NCBI RefSeq assembly: GCF_014696225.1
Contig: NZ_JACJPV010000002.1
Coordinates: 62,001-126,000 of the forward strand
Source of the DNA: Anabaena sp. FACHB-1237
GTDB taxonomy: Bacteria > Cyanobacteriota > Cyanobacteriia > Cyanobacteriales > Nostocaceae
DNA length: 64,000 nucleotides
Direction of reading: 5' to 3'
Shown here: positions 3,408 through 61,062 of the stretch, piece after piece
Position numbering within the stretch: position 1 is the stretch's first letter
Layout: each line of letters begins with the position of its first letter
The notes under the pieces: generated by a model
Databases searched by the model: none
Seen by the model: the letters and a program-made list of their open reading frames with translations, nothing else
Told to the model about the DNA's origin: nothing
Program-made: the position numbers and the translations under genes

Positions 3408-3510
3408 TAAGCTGTTGTGCCTTTAACTTGAATAATTAATACAAGCAAGATGCTTGTGCTACTGTAACTTCAGGTTTTTTAATTATACAGTGAGTGCTGC
3501 ACATTAGCTT
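3408..3510 (-). mobile_element. 104-bp TA-flanked MITE, copy 1 (reverse)
   Basis: Reverse-orientation copy of the dispersed element with ends TAAGCTAATGTGC and GCACAACAGCTTA and the central hairpin ACAAGCA-TCT-TGCTTGT. It is the only clearly inverted copy in the window. Confidence 0.8.
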
Positions 3511-15377: not shown

Positions 15378-15806
15378 TAAGCTGATGTGCAGCTAAACTG
15401 TATAACCGAAAAACCTAAAATTACTGTAGCGCAAGCATCTTGCTTGCATCAAAATTACTGTAGCGAAAGCATCTTGCTTGCATCAAAATTACTGTAGCGC
15501 AAGCATCTTGCTTGCATCAAAATTACTGTAGCGAAAGCATCTTGCTTGCATCAAAATTACTGTAGCGCAAGCATCTTGCTTGCATCAAAATTACTGTAGC
15601 GCAAGCATCTTGCTTGCATCAAAATTACTGTAGCGAAAGCATCTTGCTTGCATCTATTATCCAAGTTGGCCTTGCTGAATTAGAGTATGAAATGGAAAAG
15701 TTACAAAAATGAAAATCTTACTCTTGTGTACCTGGAGTGTCTCAGCGTCAAACTTTCATCATACCCTTAATCAGCAACACCTCCAAATTAAAAGTACAAC
15801 AGCTTA
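15378..15806 (+). mobile_element. Expanded, degenerate copy of the 104-bp MITE
   Basis: The left end (TAAGCTGATGTGCAGC, then CTGTATAACC and AAAACCTAAAATTAC) and the right end (TTAAAAGTACAACAGCTTA, ending at 15806) match the 104-bp element. The two ends are 429 bp apart because the hairpin core is repeated seven times (15417-15654) and about 130 bp of other sequence separates the array from the right end. The right end stops one base before the stop codon of the broken CAP-domain gene. Confidence 0.6.
15417..15654 (+). repeat. Tandem array, 7 x 34 bp hairpin units
   Basis: Seven head-to-tail 34-bp units, each AAAATTACTGTAGC followed by GCAAGCATCTTGCTTGCATC. Each unit holds a GCAAGCA-TCT-TGCTTGC hairpin. 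Units differ only at one position, read C, A, C, A, C, C, A in order, so expansion partly went by pairs. There are no unique spacers, so this is not a CRISPR. With surrounding DNA it fills the 15075-15806 gap, which has no gene. Confidence 0.9.
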
Positions 15807-21277: not shown

Positions 21278-21381
21278 TAAGCTAATGTGCAGCACTCACT
21301 GTATAATTAAAAAACCTGAAGTTACAGTAGCACAAGCATCTTGCTTGTATTAATTATTCAAGTTAAAAGCACAACAGCTTA
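21278..21381 (+). mobile_element. 104-bp TA-flanked MITE, copy 3
   Basis: Full-length copy: TAAGCTAATGTGC at the left, ACAACAGCTTA at the right, central ACAAGCATCTTGCTTGT hairpin. It is immediately followed by a hairpin tandem array. Confidence 0.85.
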
Positions 21382-23178: not shown

Positions 23179-25387
23179 GTTTCCATCCCCTTGCGGGGAA
23201 AAGGTGATCAAAGACCTGGAAGCTATCAAAAAAGGAGTGCGGTCATTTGTAGAGTTTCCATCCCCTTGCGGGGAAAAGGTGATCAAAGACCAATTGACGA
23301 TGAGTCAGGTCTCCAGTTATTACCCAAGTTTCCATCCCCTTGCGGGGAAAAGGTGATCAAAGACAGATTGTAGAATTGAGTTCTGTTGATTTTCCAGAAG
23401 GTTTCCATCCCCTTGCGGGGAAAAGGTGATCAAAGACCTATTAAGCAAAATCTATCCCCCACTCTAGCGGAAGGTTTCCATCCCCTTGCGGGGAAAAGGT
23501 GATCAAAGACGGGAGCGACAGTTAGCTGATACCTACCTATCTGATGTTGTTTCCATCCCCTTGCGGGGAAAAGGTGATCAAAGACCTTTATGGTTGTTTA
23601 TGGATGAGGACGATTCCTCAAGTTTCCATCCCCTTGCGGGGAAAAGGTGATCAAAGACCAAGGTAAAAATATTTTGCGACGTAAGGGATGGACCCGTTTC
23701 CATCCCCTTGCGGGGAAAAGGTGATCAAAGACGCGGCAAAGAACAATGGAAATGGCTGGAAACAGCCGCAGAAAAGTTTCCATCCCCTTGCGGGGAAAAG
23801 GTGATCAAAGACGTAAGTGCTGTTACCTTAGCAGCTTTAAGATACAAGTTTCCATCCCCTTGCGGGGAAAAGGTGATCAAAGACTCTTGCTGTTTGATAC
23901 CTCCTAGTTTGGGAGAAGGGGAGTTTCCATCCCCTTGCGGGGAAAAGGTGATCAAAGACATAAACAAGACTAAGCTGCTATTAGAAACCTTGTTTCCATC
24001 CCCTTGCGGGGAAAAGGTGATCAAAGACTCTACTACCCGATGATACAGCGTAGCAGTGACACAATGTTTCCATCCCCTTGCGGGGAAAAGGTGATCAAAG
24101 ACACGCGGAAAAAGCTGTGGAGGTCTGCACCAAGCAGGCAAGTTTCCATCCCCTTGCGGGGAAAAGGTGATCAAAGACATACAGCCTAATTCAGAGGAAT
24201 CTGCCCCTGATTTAATAGTTTCCATCCCCTTGCGGGGAAAAGGTGATCAAAGACGTCGTCTTCAACTACGCCGGCTTGTTACACATCAAGTCGTTTCCAT
24301 CCCCTTGCGGGGAAAAGGTGATCAAAGACAGACACTTTCGCCTGAAATTGGATGGAAGGATATTTATGTGTTTCCATCCCCTTGCGGGGAAAAGGTGATC
24401 AAAGACTGCGTACAAAGCAGCATCTATCTTTGAAACAAAAGATGGTGTGTTTCCATCCCCTTGCGGGGAAAAGGTGATCAAAGACTCATCAAGTAAATTG
24501 TCAAGGGATCATGGGAGCAGGGTTTCCATCCCCTTGCGGGGAAAAGGTGATCAAAGACGCACCAAAGGTCGGAAGATACCTAACGTGCCCGCTGGGTACA
24601 GTTTCCATCCCCTTGCGGGGAAAAGGTGATCAAAGACAGAAGTGGGTGGATTATTTATTACAGGAGCAAACTTATGTTTCCATCCCCTTGCGGGGAAAAG
24701 GTGATCAAAGACCTGTAATCCTGATGCTGACTCCTGGGTCGCTAAGTTAGGTTTCCATCCCCTTGCGGGGAAAAGGTGATCAAAGACTTTAACGGAAGCT
24801 AAACAAAAGCTCCGTCAAGCGGAGTTTCCATCCCCTTGCGGGGAAAAGGTGATCAAAGACGCTTTGATGGTCTTCTAGAAGAAATAAAGTCTGGTGAAGT
24901 TTCCATCCCCTTGCGGGGAAAAGGTGATCAAAGACCTGCGTGGAATTTGTTGAGTGTTACAGACCCTTGTTACAGACGTTTCCATCCCCTTGCGGGGAAA
25001 AGGTGATCAAAGACTGTGAACCAACGGCTGTAAGGAGCCTTGTATTATGTCGTTTCCATCCCCTTGCGGGGAAAAGGTGATCAAAGACAAGGAGGGCTAA
25101 AATCCCTCCAGTTTAAAACCACCCTGTTTCCATCCCCTTGCGGGGAAAAGGTGATCAAAGACCTACCAGAGAAGCATTACCGCTCTGAAGGGTATGTAGC
25201 GTTTCCATCCCCTTGCGGGGAAAAGGTGATCAAAGACCGTCATGCGGAAGAACTAATGGCTAGGATACAAAGGGAGGTGTTTCCATCCCCTTGCGGGGAA
25301 AAGGTGATCAAAGACCTTTCAGATTTTTACTATTTGGATGAGAGAGGATAGTTTCCATCCCCTTGCGGGGAAAAGGTGATCAAAGAC
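23179..25387 (-). CRISPR. CRISPR array: 30 repeats of 37 bp, 29 spacers
   Basis: The repeat, read on the plus strand, begins GTTTCCATCCCC, has the short stem CCCC-TTGC-GGGG and ends GGTGATCAAAGAC. All 30 copies read as identical. Spacers are 32 to 43 bases long, mostly 36-39. On the minus strand the repeat ends GGGGATGGAAAC, like the GAAAC 3' ends (crRNA 5' handle) of cyanobacterial type I and III repeats, and its CCTTTTCCCC-GGGGA core resembles the type III-D repeat of Synechocystis. So the array is probably transcribed leftward from the cas2 side. No repeat degeneration at either end was seen. Type is not certain without the effector genes, which are absent. Confidence 0.98.
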
Positions 25388-25756: not shown

Positions 25757-26041
25757 TTACAAGATCAGATAATCAGGAGGTTCATAGGGAGGTTCCCCAC
25801 CAAAAACCTTAGTATTTTTCTTAGCGGTTTCATCCAGGGGATAAATACGCAAATTATCTTCACTTAACTTTAAAACTGGCAACCAACGCTTTTCTAAAAG
25901 ATAATTCAAATCCTTGTCATCTAAAGGACATTCAAAAACAGAATACTGTACTCTTTGACAACGCTGTTCTAATAACTTAACCAATTTAGCGCGGCGTTTA
26001 TCATCGCGTATGTCATAGCAAAGCAACCACAATTTTGGCAT
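25757..26041 (-). CDS. cas2: CRISPR-associated endonuclease Cas2
   Basis: A 94-residue Cas2, partner of Cas1 in the spacer-integration complex. MPKLWLLCYDIRDDKRRAKL shows the ferredoxin-like first strand with the conserved Asp10, and QRVQYSVFECPL is the typical second strand. A longer frame starts upstream, but its first 25 residues overlap the transaldolase promoter region; the Met at 26041 begins exactly at the family N-terminus. It lies between the leader and the transaldolase-family gene, which points the other way. Confidence 0.93.
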   Translation of the reverse strand: MPKLWLLCYDIRDDKRRAKLVKLLEQRCQRVQYSVFECPLDDKDLNYLLEKRWLPVLKLSEDNLRIYPLDETAKKNTKVFGGEPPYEPPDYLIL

Positions 26042-26085
26042 AAAACAATGGATAATAGATAATTGAGAATTAGCAGTTATTGAAT

Positions 26086-26730
26086 ATGGCACTTTATTTA
26101 GATTCAGCGATCGCATCCGAAGCCGAAATAGTCAAACAATGGGGATGGGTAAAAGGTATCACCACCAATCCTACCTTATTAGCACAAGCGAATACACCTC
26201 CAGAAACTACCCTAAAAACCTTAGTATCCTTAACATCAGGACCAGTATATTATCAACTCCAAGCTACCGATAAACAAAGTATGATACGTGAAGGTATCAA
26301 AGCCTCGGAAATTATTGGTTCTCAGACTATACTAAAAATTCCAGCCACACCACTAGGTTTTGAAGTCGTAGCCGCACTTTCTCCACAAATTACCTGTTCT
26401 GTCACTGCTATTTATAGTTCCGCACAGGCCGCAGTTGCCAAGGAAGCAGGAGCAAAAATTGCCATAGCCTATGTTAATCGTGCTACAAGATTATTAGGTG
26501 ATGGTATCGCATTAGTCAGAGATATAGCCAATATTCTCCAAGGTAGCGATGTACAAATTTTAGCAGCTAGTATTAAATCACCGGAGGAAGCAGCCGCGTC
26601 TATTCAAGCTGGTGCAGATCATTTAACTTTACCATTATCCATGTTACAAGCTATGGCTAATAATGATTTATCAAATCGCACCGTTGCTGATTTTGTATCT
26701 GGTGGAATAGGGTTAAAAATTGATAATTGA
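26086..26730 (+). CDS. Transaldolase / fructose-6-phosphate aldolase family (TalC-like)
   Basis: A 214-residue small transaldolase-family TIM barrel. LYLDSAIASEAEIVKQWGWV and GITTNPTLL form the N-terminal signature, and the Schiff-base Lys is in TILKIPAT (residues ~84-91); CSVTAIYS and ADHLTLPLSML are also family features. It would transfer or cleave dihydroxyacetone units of sugar phosphates in the non-oxidative pentose phosphate network. The ATG at 26086 is preferred over the in-frame TTG at 26080. It sits between cas2 and cas1 on the opposite strand, only 44 bp from the cas2 start, an odd place for a metabolic gene. Its stop codon lies in a TTGATAA tandem repeat. Confidence 0.88.
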   Translation: MALYLDSAIASEAEIVKQWGWVKGITTNPTLLAQANTPPETTLKTLVSLTSGPVYYQLQATDKQSMIREGIKASEIIGSQTILKIPATPLGFEVVAALSPQITCSVTAIYSSAQAAVAKEAGAKIAIAYVNRATRLLGDGIALVRDIANILQGSDVQILAASIKSPEEAAASIQAGADHLTLPLSMLQAMANNDLSNRTVADFVSGGIGLKIDN

Positions 26731-26783
26731 TAATTAATAATTGATAATTGATAATTGATAATTGATAATTAATAATTGATAAT
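26720..26783 (+). repeat. Heptamer tandem repeat (TTGATAA)n
   Basis: About nine units of TTGATAA or TTAATAA in a row, overlapping the TGA stop of the transaldolase-family gene and running toward the cas1 stop. In-frame changes in copy number would not alter the protein beyond the last codons. Confidence 0.85.
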
Positions 26784-26838
26784 GCATATTAATCCTCAAA
26801 ATCCTCACATCCTGAGTATCTTCATTCAGACAAATCAA

Positions 26839-27849
26839 CTATTTAATTACAAACGCCTCATAGTCTAACTGAGAATGTATCAAACATCTTCCCAACCATC
26901 TTGCTTGTTCCACTAATATCTGACTCAACATTAACTTTCTATTTTGTGGCGGATATAAAAACGCCGTTCTTAACCTTCGTTCCAACTCCCCCAACAACAG
27001 TTTTTTCGCAAGTAAGCCTAACCAAATTCCCTCCCCATCTGGAGATGGTTGAAAATCTTCCTTACCTACTATCTCTGATTGAATCATAGAAATTACCGCA
27101 TGATCAACCACTATCGGCCGAAATTCCTCCATTAAATCTAATACTAAATTAGGTCTGTAAGATTCCGTAGCATGAAAAAATCCTAAATAGGGATCTAAAC
27201 CTGCTTGTACTGTAGCAGAAAATACTCTAGCTAACAATACACCATATCCCCAACTTAACAAAGCGTTTATGGGATCTAAAGGTGGTCTGCGGTTGCGCCC
27301 TTGAAAATTCCACTCTTGGGGAAAATAATGGCGTAAAGCCTGATAATAATTACGTGCGCATATTCCCTCAATTCCCATCAACTCATCACGATTAAATGGG
27401 TTTGTGATATGTAACAAACGGGAACAATAGGAATTAATCAAATCTATAGCTTCTGCCAATTCCGTAATTTTACCATTAGTGGCGCGGTTACGCCGTTGTA
27501 ATACTACTCGTTGATTCCGAATTTTACCCAGTATCATTTTTTGTGCTAAAGCCATACCGAAAGTAGTTTCCACTGTACGATATTGTGCTAATTTTATGGC
27601 AATATTACCGTGAAATTGACTTTGTAACCTCCCGCGAAACTGTCCATCTTGGCGCAAAAAGATAGTTTCTATACCTTTATCTAAGAGTTTAGAAATGGCA
27701 ACATCAGTTAACTGTACTCCAGGGAGAATAATAATTAAAGAAATATCTTCTAAGCGACAGGTTTCAGTTTTCTGTTCTTTAGCAACTATTAAAGACTCAT
27801 TACAATAACGGACAATAGTTCCATGTTCAGTTAAATATAGAGTAGTCAT
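26839..27849 (-). CDS. cas1: CRISPR-associated endonuclease Cas1
   Basis: A 336-residue Cas1 integrase. The metal site is complete: Glu161 in MGIEGICARNYY, His226 in LGFFHATESYRPNLVLD and Glu241 in LMEEFRP. The N-terminal beta domain (MTTLYLTEHGTIVRY) and the all-alpha domain are of normal length, as in type I and III systems. Cas2 is not adjacent: an oppositely oriented transaldolase-family gene separates them, so cas1 and cas2 need separate expression or read-through antisense to that gene. Confidence 0.95.
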   Translation of the reverse strand: MTTLYLTEHGTIVRYCNESLIVAKEQKTETCRLEDISLIIILPGVQLTDVAISKLLDKGIETIFLRQDGQFRGRLQSQFHGNIAIKLAQYRTVETTFGMALAQKMILGKIRNQRVVLQRRNRATNGKITELAEAIDLINSYCSRLLHITNPFNRDELMGIEGICARNYYQALRHYFPQEWNFQGRNRRPPLDPINALLSWGYGVLLARVFSATVQAGLDPYLGFFHATESYRPNLVLDLMEEFRPIVVDHAVISMIQSEIVGKEDFQPSPDGEGIWLGLLAKKLLLGELERRLRTAFLYPPQNRKLMLSQILVEQARWLGRCLIHSQLDYEAFVIK

Positions 27850-28075
27850 TTTTTCTTGATTGCTAACTGATAATTATTTACATGGTTTATTCTTACACCT
27901 TAATAGAAGACCCCTTTTCCATGAAAATTTATAACGCTTTGTATTTTGCAAGACTTACGCAACTAGCATATTGGTAAGGTGTGGTTCCACAAGCTCACCA
28001 ACCACATCAGATATTATAAATTATATAAATAACCAACCGTTGATATCTAACGCACCCACTCAACAGATTTTTTAG

Positions 28076-28561
28076 TAAGCTAATGTGCAGCACCCACTGT
28101 ATAATTAAAAAACCAGAAGTTACAGTAGCACAAGCATCTTGCTTGTATTAATTATTCAAGTTAAAGACACAACAACTTAATTAAAAAAACCAGAAGTTAC
28201 AGTAGCACAAGCATCTTGCTTGTATTAATTATTCAAGTTAAAAGCACAACAACTTAATTAAAAAACCAGAAGTTACAGTAGCACAAGCATCTTGCTTGTA
28301 TTAATTATTCAAGTTAAAGACACAACAACTTAATTAAAAAACCAGAAGTTACAGTAGCACAAGCATCTTGCTTGTATTAATTATTGAAGTTAAAAGCACA
28401 ACAACTTAATTAAAAAACCAGAAGTTACAGTAGCACAAGCATCTTGCTTGTATTAATTATTCAAGTTAAAAGCACAACAACTTAATTAAAAAAACCAGAA
28501 GTTACAGTAGCACAAGCATCTTGCTTGTATTAATTATTCAAGTTAAAAGCACAACAACTTA
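28076..28561 (+). repeat. 104-bp MITE expanded to six 76-77 bp units
   Basis: The element starts normally (TAAGCTAATGTGCAGCACCC) and then the part from AATTAAAAAACCAGAAG through the hairpin to AGCACAACAACTT repeats six times with period 76 or 77, closing with ACAACAACTTA. Hairpin starts are at 28131, 28208, 28284, 28360, 28436 and 28513. Units differ by single bases (GACAC versus AGCAC; TTCAAG versus TTGAAG). Confidence 0.88.
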
Positions 28562-28854
28562 ACTACGACACTTACATAAGTCCTATTTTGGATAAGTCTT
28601 GTGTACTGATACACCCTAGTATACTAATGATGCAAACAAACACACAAATAATTCAGTATTATTTCTATTGTTAATCTTTATTAAGTGATAAATAGTATAA
28701 ATAAGAGTAAAAAAATTACCCAAAACATAACGAAACTAGTAACCCAACTTACTAGTTATAATTCTAAGCCTTTTTTATACCCCTATATCACCATGAAAAA
28801 GGCAGAACTTGATTGATTTCTAACGTTTTTAAGGAGGTTAAAAAGATATTTGCT

Positions 28855-28878
28855 AGGGGTAATTCGTGAATTACCCCT
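28855..28878. repeat. Hairpin AGGGGTAATTC/GAATTACCCCT
   Basis: Perfect 11-bp arms with a 2-base centre. A related string, GGGGTAATTGATGAATTA, lies near 30002. Role unknown; terminator-like but with no gene just upstream. Confidence 0.5.
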
Positions 28879-28966
28879 ACACAAGAATAAAGTTTTTAGT
28901 CCAATCTTGCGTAAGTCACAAATTAACTCGCTGTTTGTCAATCTTCCAATCAGGACTTCATACTAT

Positions 28967-29387
28967 ATGTCTTTACATCCTTTTTTAATTGCTTCCGGCT
29001 GAATCCTTAGTCCCCTTACTACCATTGGTTTTCAATCAGTAGGCCTTGCTTTTTATACCTCAGACTCTCTCAGTAAGAGTGAAACAACGGGTTTTGATAA
29101 TATGGGTGAAAAGGCTTTAGATTTACACATTCAGTTTAATAACTCATTTATAAGCTAATGTGCAGCACTCACTGTATAATTAAGAAACCTGAAGTTACAG
29201 TAGCACAAGCATCTTGCTTGTATTAATTATTCAAGTTAAAGGCACAACAGCTTACCAAACCAGGGAAACTAAGTTACAGTAGCACAAGCATCTTGCTTGT
29301 ATTAATTATTCAAGTTAAAGGCACAACAGCTTACCAAACCAGGGAAACTAAAGTGATACCATCACCCTGACAGTGGTTGATAATTAA
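28967..29387 (+). pseudogene. Pilin pseudogene (SCPU-like), deleted, stopped and MITE-interrupted
   Basis: A wrecked paralogue of the pilin at 29442. The signal-peptide part is nearly the same (ATGTCTTTACATCC, then TTTTTAATTGCTTCCGGC) but carries a TGA stop at codon 12. After QSVGLAF the sequence jumps to the C-terminal part (SKSETTGFDNMGEKALDL), so about 95 codons are gone. The coding sequence is then split at 29151 by a full 104-bp element and resumes as PNQGN, a second stop, and SDTITLTVVDN. A 79-bp stretch of the element plus flank is duplicated in tandem (ends at 29254 and 29333). Confidence 0.85.
29151..29254 (+). mobile_element. 104-bp MITE inserted in pilin pseudogene, copy 5
   Basis: Left junction CATTTATAAGCTAATG, right junction CAGCTTACCAAACCAGG. 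The intact pilin reads GTCTATACCAAAACAGG at the same place, so the element sits at a TA that is present on both sides after insertion. Confidence 0.92.
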
Positions 29388-29441
29388 TAATTTATCTATC
29401 ACCTAGAAATTTACTTATTCACTAATTTAGGAATCTCCAAT

Positions 29442-29963
29442 ATGTCTTTACGTGGTTTTTTAATTGCTTCCGGCTTAATCCTTAGTCCCCTTACTACCAT
29501 TGGTTTTCAATCAGCAGCCTTTGCTGACACAGACAACACCCATATTCAGATTGGTGGCACAGTTGCCACAATCATCAGTATTAATGCAACACCAACTTCT
29601 GATGCTTCTAATTTACCTTTGAGTCAAACGGGTGAACAGATTGTCAAAATTGCTGACCTTAAAATTACAACTAACAGTCCTGCCGGTGTAAGAATAACTG
29701 TAAAATCACTGTACAACGGCACTTTGTTAAACGATGTTAATGACTATATTAACTACGGTATTCAAATAACGGATGATTCTACTACGCCTGATTCCGGATC
29801 TTTTAAAACCTTAGAAGAAGATGTGTCAATTAGTAAAACAACGGGTTTTAATTCTGAAACAGGTGAGAAGCAGTTAGATTTATACCTTAGGCTTAATAAC
29901 TTGTCTATACCAAAACAGGGAAACTACAATGATACCATAACCCTGACAGTGGCTGACAATTAA
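29442..29963 (+). CDS. Secreted pilin subunit, spore-coat-U/Csu-like
   Basis: A 173-residue secreted protein: signal peptide residues 1-28 ending SAAFA, then a beta-rich mature domain with QIGGTVATIISINATP at its start and a C-terminal GNYNDTITLTVADN, the strand pattern of SCPU/CsuA-B pilins of archaic chaperone-usher fimbriae. The N-terminal strand would complete the next subunit's fold. There is no Cys pair. It is followed by a chaperone (30354) and an usher (31350) on the same strand, which strongly supports the assignment. The SD is weak; the ATG fits the signal peptide. Confidence 0.75.
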   Translation: MSLRGFLIASGLILSPLTTIGFQSAAFADTDNTHIQIGGTVATIISINATPTSDASNLPLSQTGEQIVKIADLKITTNSPAGVRITVKSLYNGTLLNDVNDYINYGIQITDDSTTPDSGSFKTLEEDVSISKTTGFNSETGEKQLDLYLRLNNLSIPKQGNYNDTITLTVADN

Positions 29964-30097
29964 GAATTTATCTATATAGCAGTTTTAGGTTGAGGGTAGT
30001 AGGGGTAATTGATGAATTACTATTACCCCTATGGTCGGTTAATCAATAGATTCTTGTATCGCGATAGACTAAAATTAGCTATATTAGCTACCAGTTT

Positions 30098-30350
30098 CAA
30101 ATAACTAATCATTCTACACCAAAACACTGAAACTATAGTGATAAGCTAATGTGCAGCACTCACTGTATAATTAAAAAAAATTAAAAAACCTGAAGTTACA
30201 GTAGCACAAGCATCTTGCTTGTATTAATTATTCAAGTTAAAGGCACAACAGCTTACCATAACCCTGACGGCTACATATATCCCTGCTTTTATGCAATACC
30301 CTGGAACTTATAGCAGTTTTATTAAACTAACTTTATTTGATAACAATTAA
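30098..30350 (+). pseudogene. Second pilin remnant, split by a MITE
   Basis: ATAACTAATCATTCTACACC followed by AAAACACTGAAAC resembles the pilin C-terminal coding part (AATAACTTGTCTATACC then AAAACAGGGAAAC) with a stop in it. A 104-bp-type element interrupts at 30142-30255 and coding sense resumes as TITLTATYIPAFMQYPGTYS, then SFIKLTLFDNN and a stop at 30348, the sort of ending expected for SCPU pilins. The upstream part of this gene is unrecognisable. It ends three bases before the chaperone start, so a pilin gene once stood directly upstream. Confidence 0.7.
30142..30255 (+). mobile_element. 104-bp-type MITE, copy 6 (114 bp)
   Basis: Junctions AGTGATAAGCTAATG and CAGCTTACCATAACCCTG; the intact pilin has AATGATACCATAACCCTG, again a single TA. 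The extra 10 bp is a short internal duplication of the AATTAAAAAA tract. Confidence 0.9.
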
Positions 30351-30353
30351 ATC

Positions 30354-31118
30354 ATGAAACTCTCAGTTCGACATTTTTTTAATTTTATTTTCTTTGTAAT
30401 ATTAAGTGGGATTTCACCAGCACTAGCCTTTAAGTTAGACCCAATTTCTAGGGTATTTGAACCAGCAGGAGTAGGCGCTACCCAGTCTTATAAAATTATT
30501 AATGATACCTCAGAAAAAATTGCCGTTGAAGTTTCAATGGTAGAGCGAAAAATCAGTATAGATGGTCAAGAAACCACTGAAAAAGCTGATGGTGATTTTT
30601 TAATTTATCCATCCCAAATAATCCTACCACCTCAAGGTGTACAATCAGTTCGCGTTACTTGGTTAGGTAATCCTAACCCTGAAAAAGAACTAACTTATCG
30701 TCTTGTGGCTGAACAGTTAGCAGTTAACTTAAAAGATCCCAAACAATCACAACTAGAAACAACAACAGGGGGAATCAAAGTAATGTTTCGTTATATGGGA
30801 TCAGTCTATATTCGCCCCAAAAATGCACAGTCTAAAGTTCTACTTAATGGCATTACTCACGAAAAAGGAAAAGAAGGAAATGATCTGTTAGTAATTACCT
30901 TTGATAATCAGGGTACTCGCCGGGCAGTTTTATCAGAATTAAATTTAAACCTAACTAGCGAAAAAGGCACTCAACTTACTCTCAAACCAGAACACTTACA
31001 AGGTGTTAATAATGGGGTGATTTTGGCAGGAAATCAGCGACGGTTTTCTATTCCTTGGCCTAAACAATTACCTGTGGGCAAAGTCACAGGAACATTTACA
31101 TTTAAAGATGTTCAATAA
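30354..31118 (+). CDS. PapD-like periplasmic fimbrial chaperone
   Basis: A 254-residue chaperone: signal peptide to about residue 25 (ISPALA-FKLDP), then the N-terminal immunoglobulin-like domain (RVFEPAGVGATQSYKIIND; VEVSMVERK) and the edge-strand/inter-domain region PPQGVQSVRVTWLGNP, where PapD-family chaperones hold subunits by donor-strand complementation. The second domain follows (GGIKVMFRYMGSVYIRP; NQGTRRAVLSELNLNL). It prevents pilin misfolding and delivers subunits to the usher. It lies between pilin remnants and the usher gene, 231 bp apart from the latter. Confidence 0.88.
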   Translation: MKLSVRHFFNFIFFVILSGISPALAFKLDPISRVFEPAGVGATQSYKIINDTSEKIAVEVSMVERKISIDGQETTEKADGDFLIYPSQIILPPQGVQSVRVTWLGNPNPEKELTYRLVAEQLAVNLKDPKQSQLETTTGGIKVMFRYMGSVYIRPKNAQSKVLLNGITHEKGKEGNDLLVITFDNQGTRRAVLSELNLNLTSEKGTQLTLKPEHLQGVNNGVILAGNQRRFSIPWPKQLPVGKVTGTFTFKDVQ

Positions 31119-42546: not shown

Positions 42547-42660
42547 TAAGCTAATGTGCAGCACTCACTGTAACTCACTGTATAATTAAAAAACCTGAAG
42601 TTACAGTAGCACAAGCATCTTGCTTGTATTAATTATTCAAGTTAAAGGCACAACAGCTTA
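42547..42660 (+). mobile_element. 104-bp-type MITE, copy 7 (114 bp)
   Basis: Ends TAAGCTAATGTGC and CAACAGCTTA; the extra 10 bp is a duplication of the CACTGTAACT tract. It separates the palindrome from the adhesin stop codon; the duplicate locus at 47951-48071 lacks it. Confidence 0.88.
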
Positions 42661-49853: not shown

Positions 49854-49957
49854 TAAGCTAATGTGCAGCACTCACTGTATAATTAAAAAACCTGAAGTTA
49901 CAGTAGCACAAGCATCTTGCTTGTATTAATTATTCAAGTTAAAGGCACAACAGCTTA
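49854..49957 (+). mobile_element. 104-bp TA-flanked MITE, copy 8
   Basis: Full-length copy at a TA directly after the right end of the preceding element, between gpmI and secG (GACCTGATAAGCTAATG; CAGCTTAGAATTAAG). Confidence 0.88.
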
Positions 49958-51060: not shown

Positions 51061-51333
51061 CAGGACTTGTAGAGTGCGTTACAGTTTTACCTCACGCATC
51101 CTATATATATAACGATGGTAGACAGAATCTCCAGTCTCGCATTACTTCTAAGCTAATGTGCAGCACTCACTGTATAATTAAAAAACCTGAAGTTACAGTA
51201 GCACAAGCATCTTGCTTGTATTAATTATTCAAGTTAAAGGCACAACAGCTTATTTACATGATTTATACTGTCTGACGTGGTTGGTGAGCTTGTCGAACCA
51301 CACCCTACCAATGTTCCAGTTGCGTAAGTCCTG
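51061..51333. mobile_element. AGGACTTACGCAA-family element with nested MITE
   Basis: Left end CAGGACTTGTAGAGTGCGTT, right end CACCCTACCAATGTTCC then TTGCGTAAGTCCTG. The 104-bp element is inserted in the middle, so it arrived later. Confidence 0.6.
51149..51252 (+). mobile_element. 104-bp TA-flanked MITE, copy 9
   Basis: Full-length copy (ACTTCTAAGCTAATG; CAGCTTATTTACATG) nested inside the older element. Confidence 0.88.
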
Positions 51334-57870: not shown

Positions 57871-57974
57871 TAAGCTAATGTGCAGCACTCACTGTATAAT
57901 TAAAAAACCTGAAGTTACAGTAGCACAAGCATCTTGCTTGTATTAATTATTCAAGTTAAAGGCACAACAGCTTA
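57871..57974 (+). mobile_element. 104-bp TA-flanked MITE, copy 10
   Basis: Full-length copy (GTAAGTAAGCTAATG; CAGCTTATTCAGC) 32 bp after the preceding element. Confidence 0.88.
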
Positions 57975-60958: not shown

Positions 60959-61062
60959 TAAGCTAATGTGCAGCACTCACTGTATAATTAAAAAACCTGA
61001 AGTTACAGTAGCACAAGCATCTTGCTTGTATTAATTATTCAAGTTAAAGGCACAACAGCTTA
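60959..61062 (+). mobile_element. 104-bp TA-flanked MITE, copy 11, inside the hox operon
   Basis: Full-length copy 12 bases after the hoxF stop (GGAACAGATAAGCTAATG; CAGCTTAACAGGTGACAG), 58 bases before the hoxU ATG. Removing one TA plus the element restores a plausible GGAACAGATAACAGGTGACA. Confidence 0.9.

Follow-up and report, generated by a model that had tools for sequence, protein, structure and literature searches.

The pilin locus and its two insertions

The window, by which we mean the whole stretch of 64,000 nucleotides of Anabaena sp. FACHB-1237 that was analysed, corresponds to positions 62001-126000 of contig C12 in a draft genome of 4.65 Mb and 95 contigs. Between 29442 and 33884 this cyanobacterium encodes a pilin-like open reading frame (ORF), a PapD-type chaperone (23.6 bits, cut-off 23) and an usher (79.7 bits, cut-off 27.1), as seen from the ORF list and profile searches. 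The pilin-like ORF (29442-29963, plus strand, 173 aa) is intact, precedes the chaperone and usher genes and has no Pfam match. It is adjoined by two pilin relics. Relic 1 (28967-29387, plus strand, with the limits given in the initial annotation) shows an early in-frame stop and a lost middle when read by eye, and relic 2 was compared over the portion surrounding its insert (30115-30269, plus strand). No Rfam match was obtained for positions 28000-31000.

Each relic contains one MITE copy on the plus strand. Copy 1, in relic 1, is 100 bp long (29153-29252) and lies between a TA at 29151-29152 and a TA at 29253-29254. Copy 2, in relic 2, is 110 bp long, includes a 10-bp internal repeat (30144-30253) and lies between a TA at 30142-30143 and a TA at 30254-30255. 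Comparison of the flanks with the intact pilin places the empty site of copy 1 at a single TA at 29908-29909 and that of copy 2 at a single TA at 29933-29934. The initial annotation had claimed that the relics align with the intact gene as far as the MITE copies, and that one TA had become two at both places; the flank comparison agrees on both counts. The flanks of copy 1 match the intact pilin at 17/24 positions on the left (the TA counted) and 16/18 on the right, and those of copy 2 at 23/28 and 13/14. All 5,901 TA sites in the window were scored against the joined flanks, and the TA of the intact pilin ranked first for relic 1 (33/42, the next site reaching 24/42). It also ranked first for relic 2 (36/42), followed by the empty version of the same site in relic 1 (34/42) and then by an unrelated site (23/42).

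At the first site, the insertion stands as first described, while the surroundings are more complex than described: a 79-bp unit made of the right part of copy 1 and its pilin flank is present twice in tandem with 100% match (29192-29351, plus strand, repeat search). Such a tandem duplication, together with the three pilin copies lying side by side, could suggest that the relics and their MITEs were copied together and were not independent insertions. We consider this extremely unlikely, as the two insertions occupy different TAs that are 25 bp apart in the intact copy, relic 1 carries the second site in its empty version (34/42), the intact gene carries both sites empty, and the same junctions are found in copies elsewhere in the genome. 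Two separate insertions into pilin copies are the preferred reading of the locus. We set aside the MITE as the cause of pilin decay: the relics are damaged beyond the MITE, so its insertion need not have broken them.

Copies, ends and target in the genome

A search for the left end of the element (up to 2 mismatches) returned 214 left ends genome-wide (116 and 98 on the two strands). We read 109 distinct places, taken from the window, the searched loci and the fetched stretches. Both ends were present in 100 of the 109, and the right end was not recognisable in the other 9. The initial annotation had defined the element as 100 bp with a TA on each side. This definition is correct for copy 1 of the pilin locus and genome-wide, since 87 of the 100 two-ended copies are exactly 100 bp long, and does not fit the 110 bp of pilin copy 2. 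The copies are nearly identical: among the 87 of 100 bp, 84 lie within 2 letters of the consensus, 38 of them being identical to it.

Flanks other than TA had been named beforehand as evidence that would speak against the proposed target. The left dinucleotide is TA in 99/100 copies and the right one likewise in 99/100, the exceptions being one CA on the left and one GA on the right. Beyond the TA we found a weak palindromic preference of the form T-R-A-TA-T-Y-A, with at most 0.27 bits per position. The terminal inverted repeats TAAGCTAATGTGC / TAAGCTGTTGTGC match at 11 of 13 positions (by eye). The MITE has no coding capacity; at 100 bp, it is overlapped at 29153-29252 by no listed ORF of at least 60 aa. 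Only one of the 55 copies with enough flank has an ORF of at least 100 aa running into it, as compared to 2,173 of 3,160 random TAs that lie inside such ORFs. This shows that the copies are biased towards non-coding DNA, and we give no exact size for the bias: the two ORF measures differ and are not equivalent, as a gene interrupted by an insertion may be left in fragments of less than 100 aa.

By end search, the window contains further copies on the plus strand at 21280-21379, 42549-42658 (110 bp), 49856-49955, 51151-51250, 57873-57972 and 60961-61060, and one on the minus strand at 3410-3509. It also contains more distant members. An older family member on the plus strand (approximate limits 15378-15668, right end unrecognised) has the left end TAAGCTGATGTGCAGCTAAA and carries the hairpin unit described below seven times in 34-bp steps. 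A MITE relative detected by repeat search (28078-28562, plus strand) consists over its right three quarters of a 76-bp unit repeated six times in tandem (28102-28562); at the ends of this array member, AACTTA stands in place of AGCTTA.

Single-TA empty sites

For a genome-wide test we joined the 60-bp flanks of 98 copies with one TA, excluding the 2 of the 100 that lack TA on one side, and searched part of the genome with these queries. Spanning matches were obtained for 21 of the 98, and 13 of the 98 copies have a clean single-TA empty site, that is, a match with no gap around the junction, no MITE and at least 75% identity on both sides. All 13 clean cases include matches reading TA at the junction, and in three of them a minority reads otherwise (TA in 13/14, 13/17 and 12/14). 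The 13 sites are not all of independent kinds, because several lie in dispersed repeats. The other 8 of the 21 spanning cases involve low-complexity, self-derived, weaker or gapped matches; one of them is the copy at 42549, whose match has a 7-bp gap at the junction.

Both pilin copies are outside the 13 clean cases. In the automatic filter, the query from pilin copy 1 found the region duplicated at that copy itself, and pilin copy 2 had no spanning match at that threshold. Because neither passed, the pilin empty sites rest on the direct flank comparison given above. The comparison of filled and empty sites within one locus had been called rare in the initial annotation. This was overstated, because 13/98 copies gave empty sites even though the search covered part of the genome.

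Search for a transposase in the host genome

The initial annotation had attributed the insertions to Tc1/mariner or IS630-type transposition and had suggested a whole-genome search for an IS630-type transposase with matching ends. In this 95-contig draft, a DDE_3 profile, a protein search with the IS630 transposase P0001 of a relative (see below) and a search for the ends together revealed no IS630 element with matching ends. Such elements are present in relatives. A matching IS in the same genome, which is the criterion for a type I MITE, was thus not seen in this assembly. The absence of a partner IS is not final, because the assembly is a draft in 95 contigs.

The DDE_3 profile detected two decayed genes in this assembly, each split over several frames, and no inverted pair of matching ends was found near either of them. 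P0001 has 2 weak matches in this genome; the better one, which is the one listed, covers the N-terminal half in an open frame of 211 aa. The presence of the two DDE_3 relics raises the alternative that another TA-duplicating enzyme still encoded here, for example a decayed or unrecognised IS630 group, moves the element. The drift of the left end of the abundant copies away from the IS of relatives (see below) would also agree with this. On the DDE_3, P0001 and end-motif searches, we regard it as very unlikely: around the relics the end motif is matched only loosely, at four places that share one strand and never follow a TA, and both genes are broken into several frames. Moreover, an end pattern not typical of the MITE (TAAGCTNNTGTGCNM) occurs at 4 places, which, over 150 bases each, proved to be three MITE relatives and one unpaired end. 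A transposase from outside the present assembly remains our preferred source.

We also noted a protein of 205 aa (L193:956-1570; G000:C1:203030-203542) that resembles the N-terminal half of IS630 transposases (NF033545, 72.5 bits, cut-off 100). Similar matches occur in many genomes of the family among the matches listed. By its sequence it is perhaps a domesticated part of a transposase. As a mobiliser of the MITE it was set aside, as it covers the N-terminal half only.

IS630 elements in related genomes

In relatives we found IS630 elements of about 1.2 kb with the ends TAAGCTGTTGTGCAGCT. They are carried, among others, by Cylindrospermum sp. NIES-4074, Dolichospermum circinale AWQC310F and Sphaerospermopsis kisseleviana NIES-73; in NIES-73 the copy is shortened to 999 bp. 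A complete IS (L114) measures 1,191 bp, reads TAAGCTGTTGTGCAGCTT...AGCTGCACAACAGCTTA at its ends and encodes the IS630 transposase P0001 of 370 aa (NF033545, 268.7 bits, cut-off 100; DDE_3, 132.1 bits); a PDB sequence search with P0001 gave no match. Of the 118 genomes searched in the same GTDB family, 52 contain the end motif with its next letters (TAAGCTRWTGTGCNNNTNAA), and our genome is one of the 52; the reversed control pattern had one occurrence among the matches listed. At E <=0.001, P0001 has protein matches in 114 of the 118 genomes, and many of those listed cover the N-terminal part only, at about 30% identity and in frames of about 200 aa.

A strict search for paired ends succeeded in 4/30 loci. 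When the best TA-bounded inverted repeat around each gene was taken instead, both ends start with TAAGCT in 13 of 14 full-length loci (L139 has TAAGGT/TAAGTT) and, in a second set, in 17 of 19 (L352 has TAAGCT/TAAACT, and L387 lacks such a pair). The two sets overlap and were drawn from 30 and 56 loci respectively; the script imposed the TA and not the letters that follow. The letters after TAAGCT vary with the IS group (GTTGTGC, GCTACGC or AATCGGC). The sequence TAAGCTGTTACGC was found both in MITEs (L310, L312 and L315) and in one IS (L351), at different loci.

We compared about 28 bp of each end of seven MITE members with one IS of a relative (L127). Six of the seven match the left end of the IS at 23-26 of 28 positions, and all seven match the right end at 20-24 of 28. 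The seventh is the type abundant in this genome, hereafter the burst type, whose left end matches the IS left end at 15/28 without a gap. This counts against the correspondence, and the mismatch results from a small change in the left end. In the remaining six, the left end of the MITE matches the IS right end at least as well as the IS left end, so that the ends of the IS can be paired with those of the MITE in either order. On these comparisons, the MITE ends appear to match IS630 elements of relatives only, and none of the host assembly.

Distribution of the MITE family

The MITE family is spread over related genera. With a member from a relative as query, 87 of the 118 genomes match at E <=0.001, this one included and partial matches counted. 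The members are about 103 bp long and share two common ends and an internal hairpin of the GTAGTGCGGGCATCTTGCCCGC type. Three copies in genome G076 (L260-L262) are nearly the same as the type of this genome except for the change at the left end. The burst left end itself (at most 1 mismatch) was found in none of the 117 other family genomes, and is present in 1/118, namely this genome. The older MITE type, which has AGCTAAACTG near its left end, persists here and in Sphaerospermopsis kisseleviana NIES-73.

Taken together, the 100 two-ended copies, the 13 single-TA empty sites among 98 copies tested and the IS630 elements of relatives with matching ends TAAGCTGTTGTGCAGCT support the original assignment to IS630 or Tc1/mariner-type transposition. 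With a probability of roughly 90%, we propose that this non-coding, TA-flanked element of 100 bp with single-TA empty sites was spread in trans by an IS630-type transposase, as judged from the traces left in the sequence. The transposase would bind the conserved MITE ends of about 28 bp and would excise the element, as reported for ISY100 and the Tc1/mariner family. Joining to a TA with a two-base stagger, followed by repair, would then leave two TAs, again as for ISY100 and Tc1/mariner. The source transposase was probably present recently, because the copies are nearly identical, and would since have been lost or lie in DNA missing from the 95-contig assembly. The burst type may have arisen from the older type through a small change of AGCTAAACTG to AGCACTCACTG.

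A conserved hairpin inside the element

Sequence comparison identified a GTAG-tagged hairpin, GTAGCACAAGCATCTTGCTTGT, at 29200-29221 (plus strand) in pilin copy 1, and the same hairpin at 30201-30222 (plus strand) in copy 2. We aligned 39 hairpin rows chosen by hand, using each place once; members lacking the hairpin, truncated at an end or carrying long insertions in the loop were excluded. The tag is GTAG in 29 rows, GTGG in 7 and absent in 3. In the 6-bp stem, 96.1% of the cells are paired, a percentage that applies to hairpin-bearing members only, and 26 cells are changed on both sides. Sliding the partner strand by 1-3 columns gives at most 55.6% paired cells and at most 11 changed on both sides. 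None of 500 shuffles reaches the observed pairing percentage, number of changed cells or covariation score. Two further measures do not stand out: the observed 4 pairs that show such changes are reached in 96 of the 500 shuffles, and the observed 10 further pair types in 97. Eight of the rows changed on both sides come from this genome and G076, and five others (L109, L256, L257, L306 and L307) from three more genomes. The compensated changes in the stem favour a conserved hairpin fold, and this is support from the alignment and not a probability. The terminal repeat has no such compensated changes.

Hairpin matches were detected in 42 of 60 family genomes, this one included. Among 30 hairpin loci, 24 have neither MITE end nearby (a count that decayed ends could escape), 4 have an inverted partner, 1 has the right end and 1 has both ends. 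We call the hairpin REP-like because the same type occurs without MITE ends and because GTAG-tagged REPs, some of them inside other palindromes, are described in the passages that we cite of a study of cyanobacteria (PMC3733652). Judging from these comparisons, the hairpin is a conserved, REP-like part of many family members. It may be a REP that is simply carried along, or it may favour persistence of the element.

The occurrence of the GTAG-tagged hairpin outside the MITE, and the 28 Y1_Tnp matches in this genome, allow another explanation, in which the hairpin itself spread the copies: it would be a GTAG REP mobilised by a tyrosine (RAYT) enzyme of the IS200-like kind, with the TA flanks arising incidentally. 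This seems very unlikely to us. The moving unit is the whole 100 bp with exact ends and a TA duplication, and in relatives there are elements with the same kind of ends that lack the hairpin motif (L121, L124, L246, L279 and L282). Furthermore, a free-standing hairpin is found near only 1 of the 28 Y1_Tnp loci, where it is tagged with GTAA and not GTAG; at 5 others the hairpin is inside a MITE copy. Mobilisation through the IS630-type ends is more consistent with these observations. At another locus (L321, at about 728 and 1462), we observed a broken Y1_Tnp gene with two GTAACACAGGCATCTTGCCTG hairpins nearby in opposite orientation, which from its layout is perhaps a decayed REP transposase unit.

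Comparison with known systems

In kind, the element is an ordinary IS630 MITE, a known class. A literature search with the sequences of the MITE ends and hairpin, covering mostly freely accessible papers, found no description of this element. Nezha, reportedly a MITE of cyanobacteria (Zhou et al., 2008), is alike by name only, as a cyanobacterial MITE. Two features go beyond the ordinary, namely a burst of this size in an assembly that yielded no transposase for it, and the conserved REP-like hairpin inside the element.

The closest described mechanism is that of IS630/Tc1-mariner elements such as ISY100 of Synechocystis, which in the cited passages (PMC2170065) shares with our element the TA target, the TA duplication and imperfect terminal repeats of about 24-28 bp. 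According to the same passages, 30 bp of each end suffice for a mini-element to reach the activity of the full ISY100, and the ISY100 transposase alone excises and inserts at TA, needing only the ends (PMC2170065). Unlike ISY100, the MITE codes for nothing and its partner transposase was not found in the assembly. The P0001-type IS630 group of Cylindrospermum sp. NIES-4074 is similar in its TAAGCTGTTGTGCAGCT ends, which the MITEs of the family match over about 28 bp on both sides. It differs in that the IS is about 1.2 kb with a transposase of 370 aa, whereas the MITE keeps about 28 bp per end, with drift on the left in the burst type.

In Anabaena sp. 90, 147 MITEs of 77-541 bp were reported, 132 of them intergenic; they are termed type II, having no IS with evidently similar ends in their genome (PMC3542288, as described in the passages cited). 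By that description, they resemble the present family as short cyanobacterial elements without a partner IS in their own genome. In contrast to them, the present family has matching IS elements in relatives. The hairpin is likewise similar to the GTAG-12/15/16 REPs in the part of that study cited here (PMC3733652): it is short, palindromic and dispersed, with GTAG left unpaired at one of its ends, and it forms adjacent inverted pairs in genome G001. It differs from these REPs in its fixed place in an IS630-type MITE.

The ends, the TA duplication and the empty sites connect a large and recent MITE burst with a defined IS630 group. For type II MITEs, in the term used for Anabaena sp. 90, the results offer a testable answer, namely that a transposase found today in relatives could account for their spread. 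The hairpin inside the MITE also links two classes of repeats that the literature passages cited above describe separately. More tentatively, and in our view doubtful at present, the element could be a chimera of two mobile systems, with IS630 ends enclosing a GTAG REP hairpin whose folding is maintained by selection. Such a MITE would spread REPs under one enzyme and could be served by two, and its burst in a genome that has no IS now would show that transposases which enter the lineage and later leave it drive the orphan type II MITEs of bloom-forming cyanobacteria.

Other repeats were seen around the family and in the window. A different dispersed repeat (GTTGTAGGGTGCGTCAGATAT ... TTGCGTAAGTCC) surrounds the burst copies L023, L024 and L036, and the older MITE members L063 and L075 are also interrupted by a repeat of this kind. 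At 23708-25351 and 25757-27849, the window contains short direct repeats that are visible as recurring peptides in the ORFs, and adjoining them are putative genes for Cas2 and Cas1.
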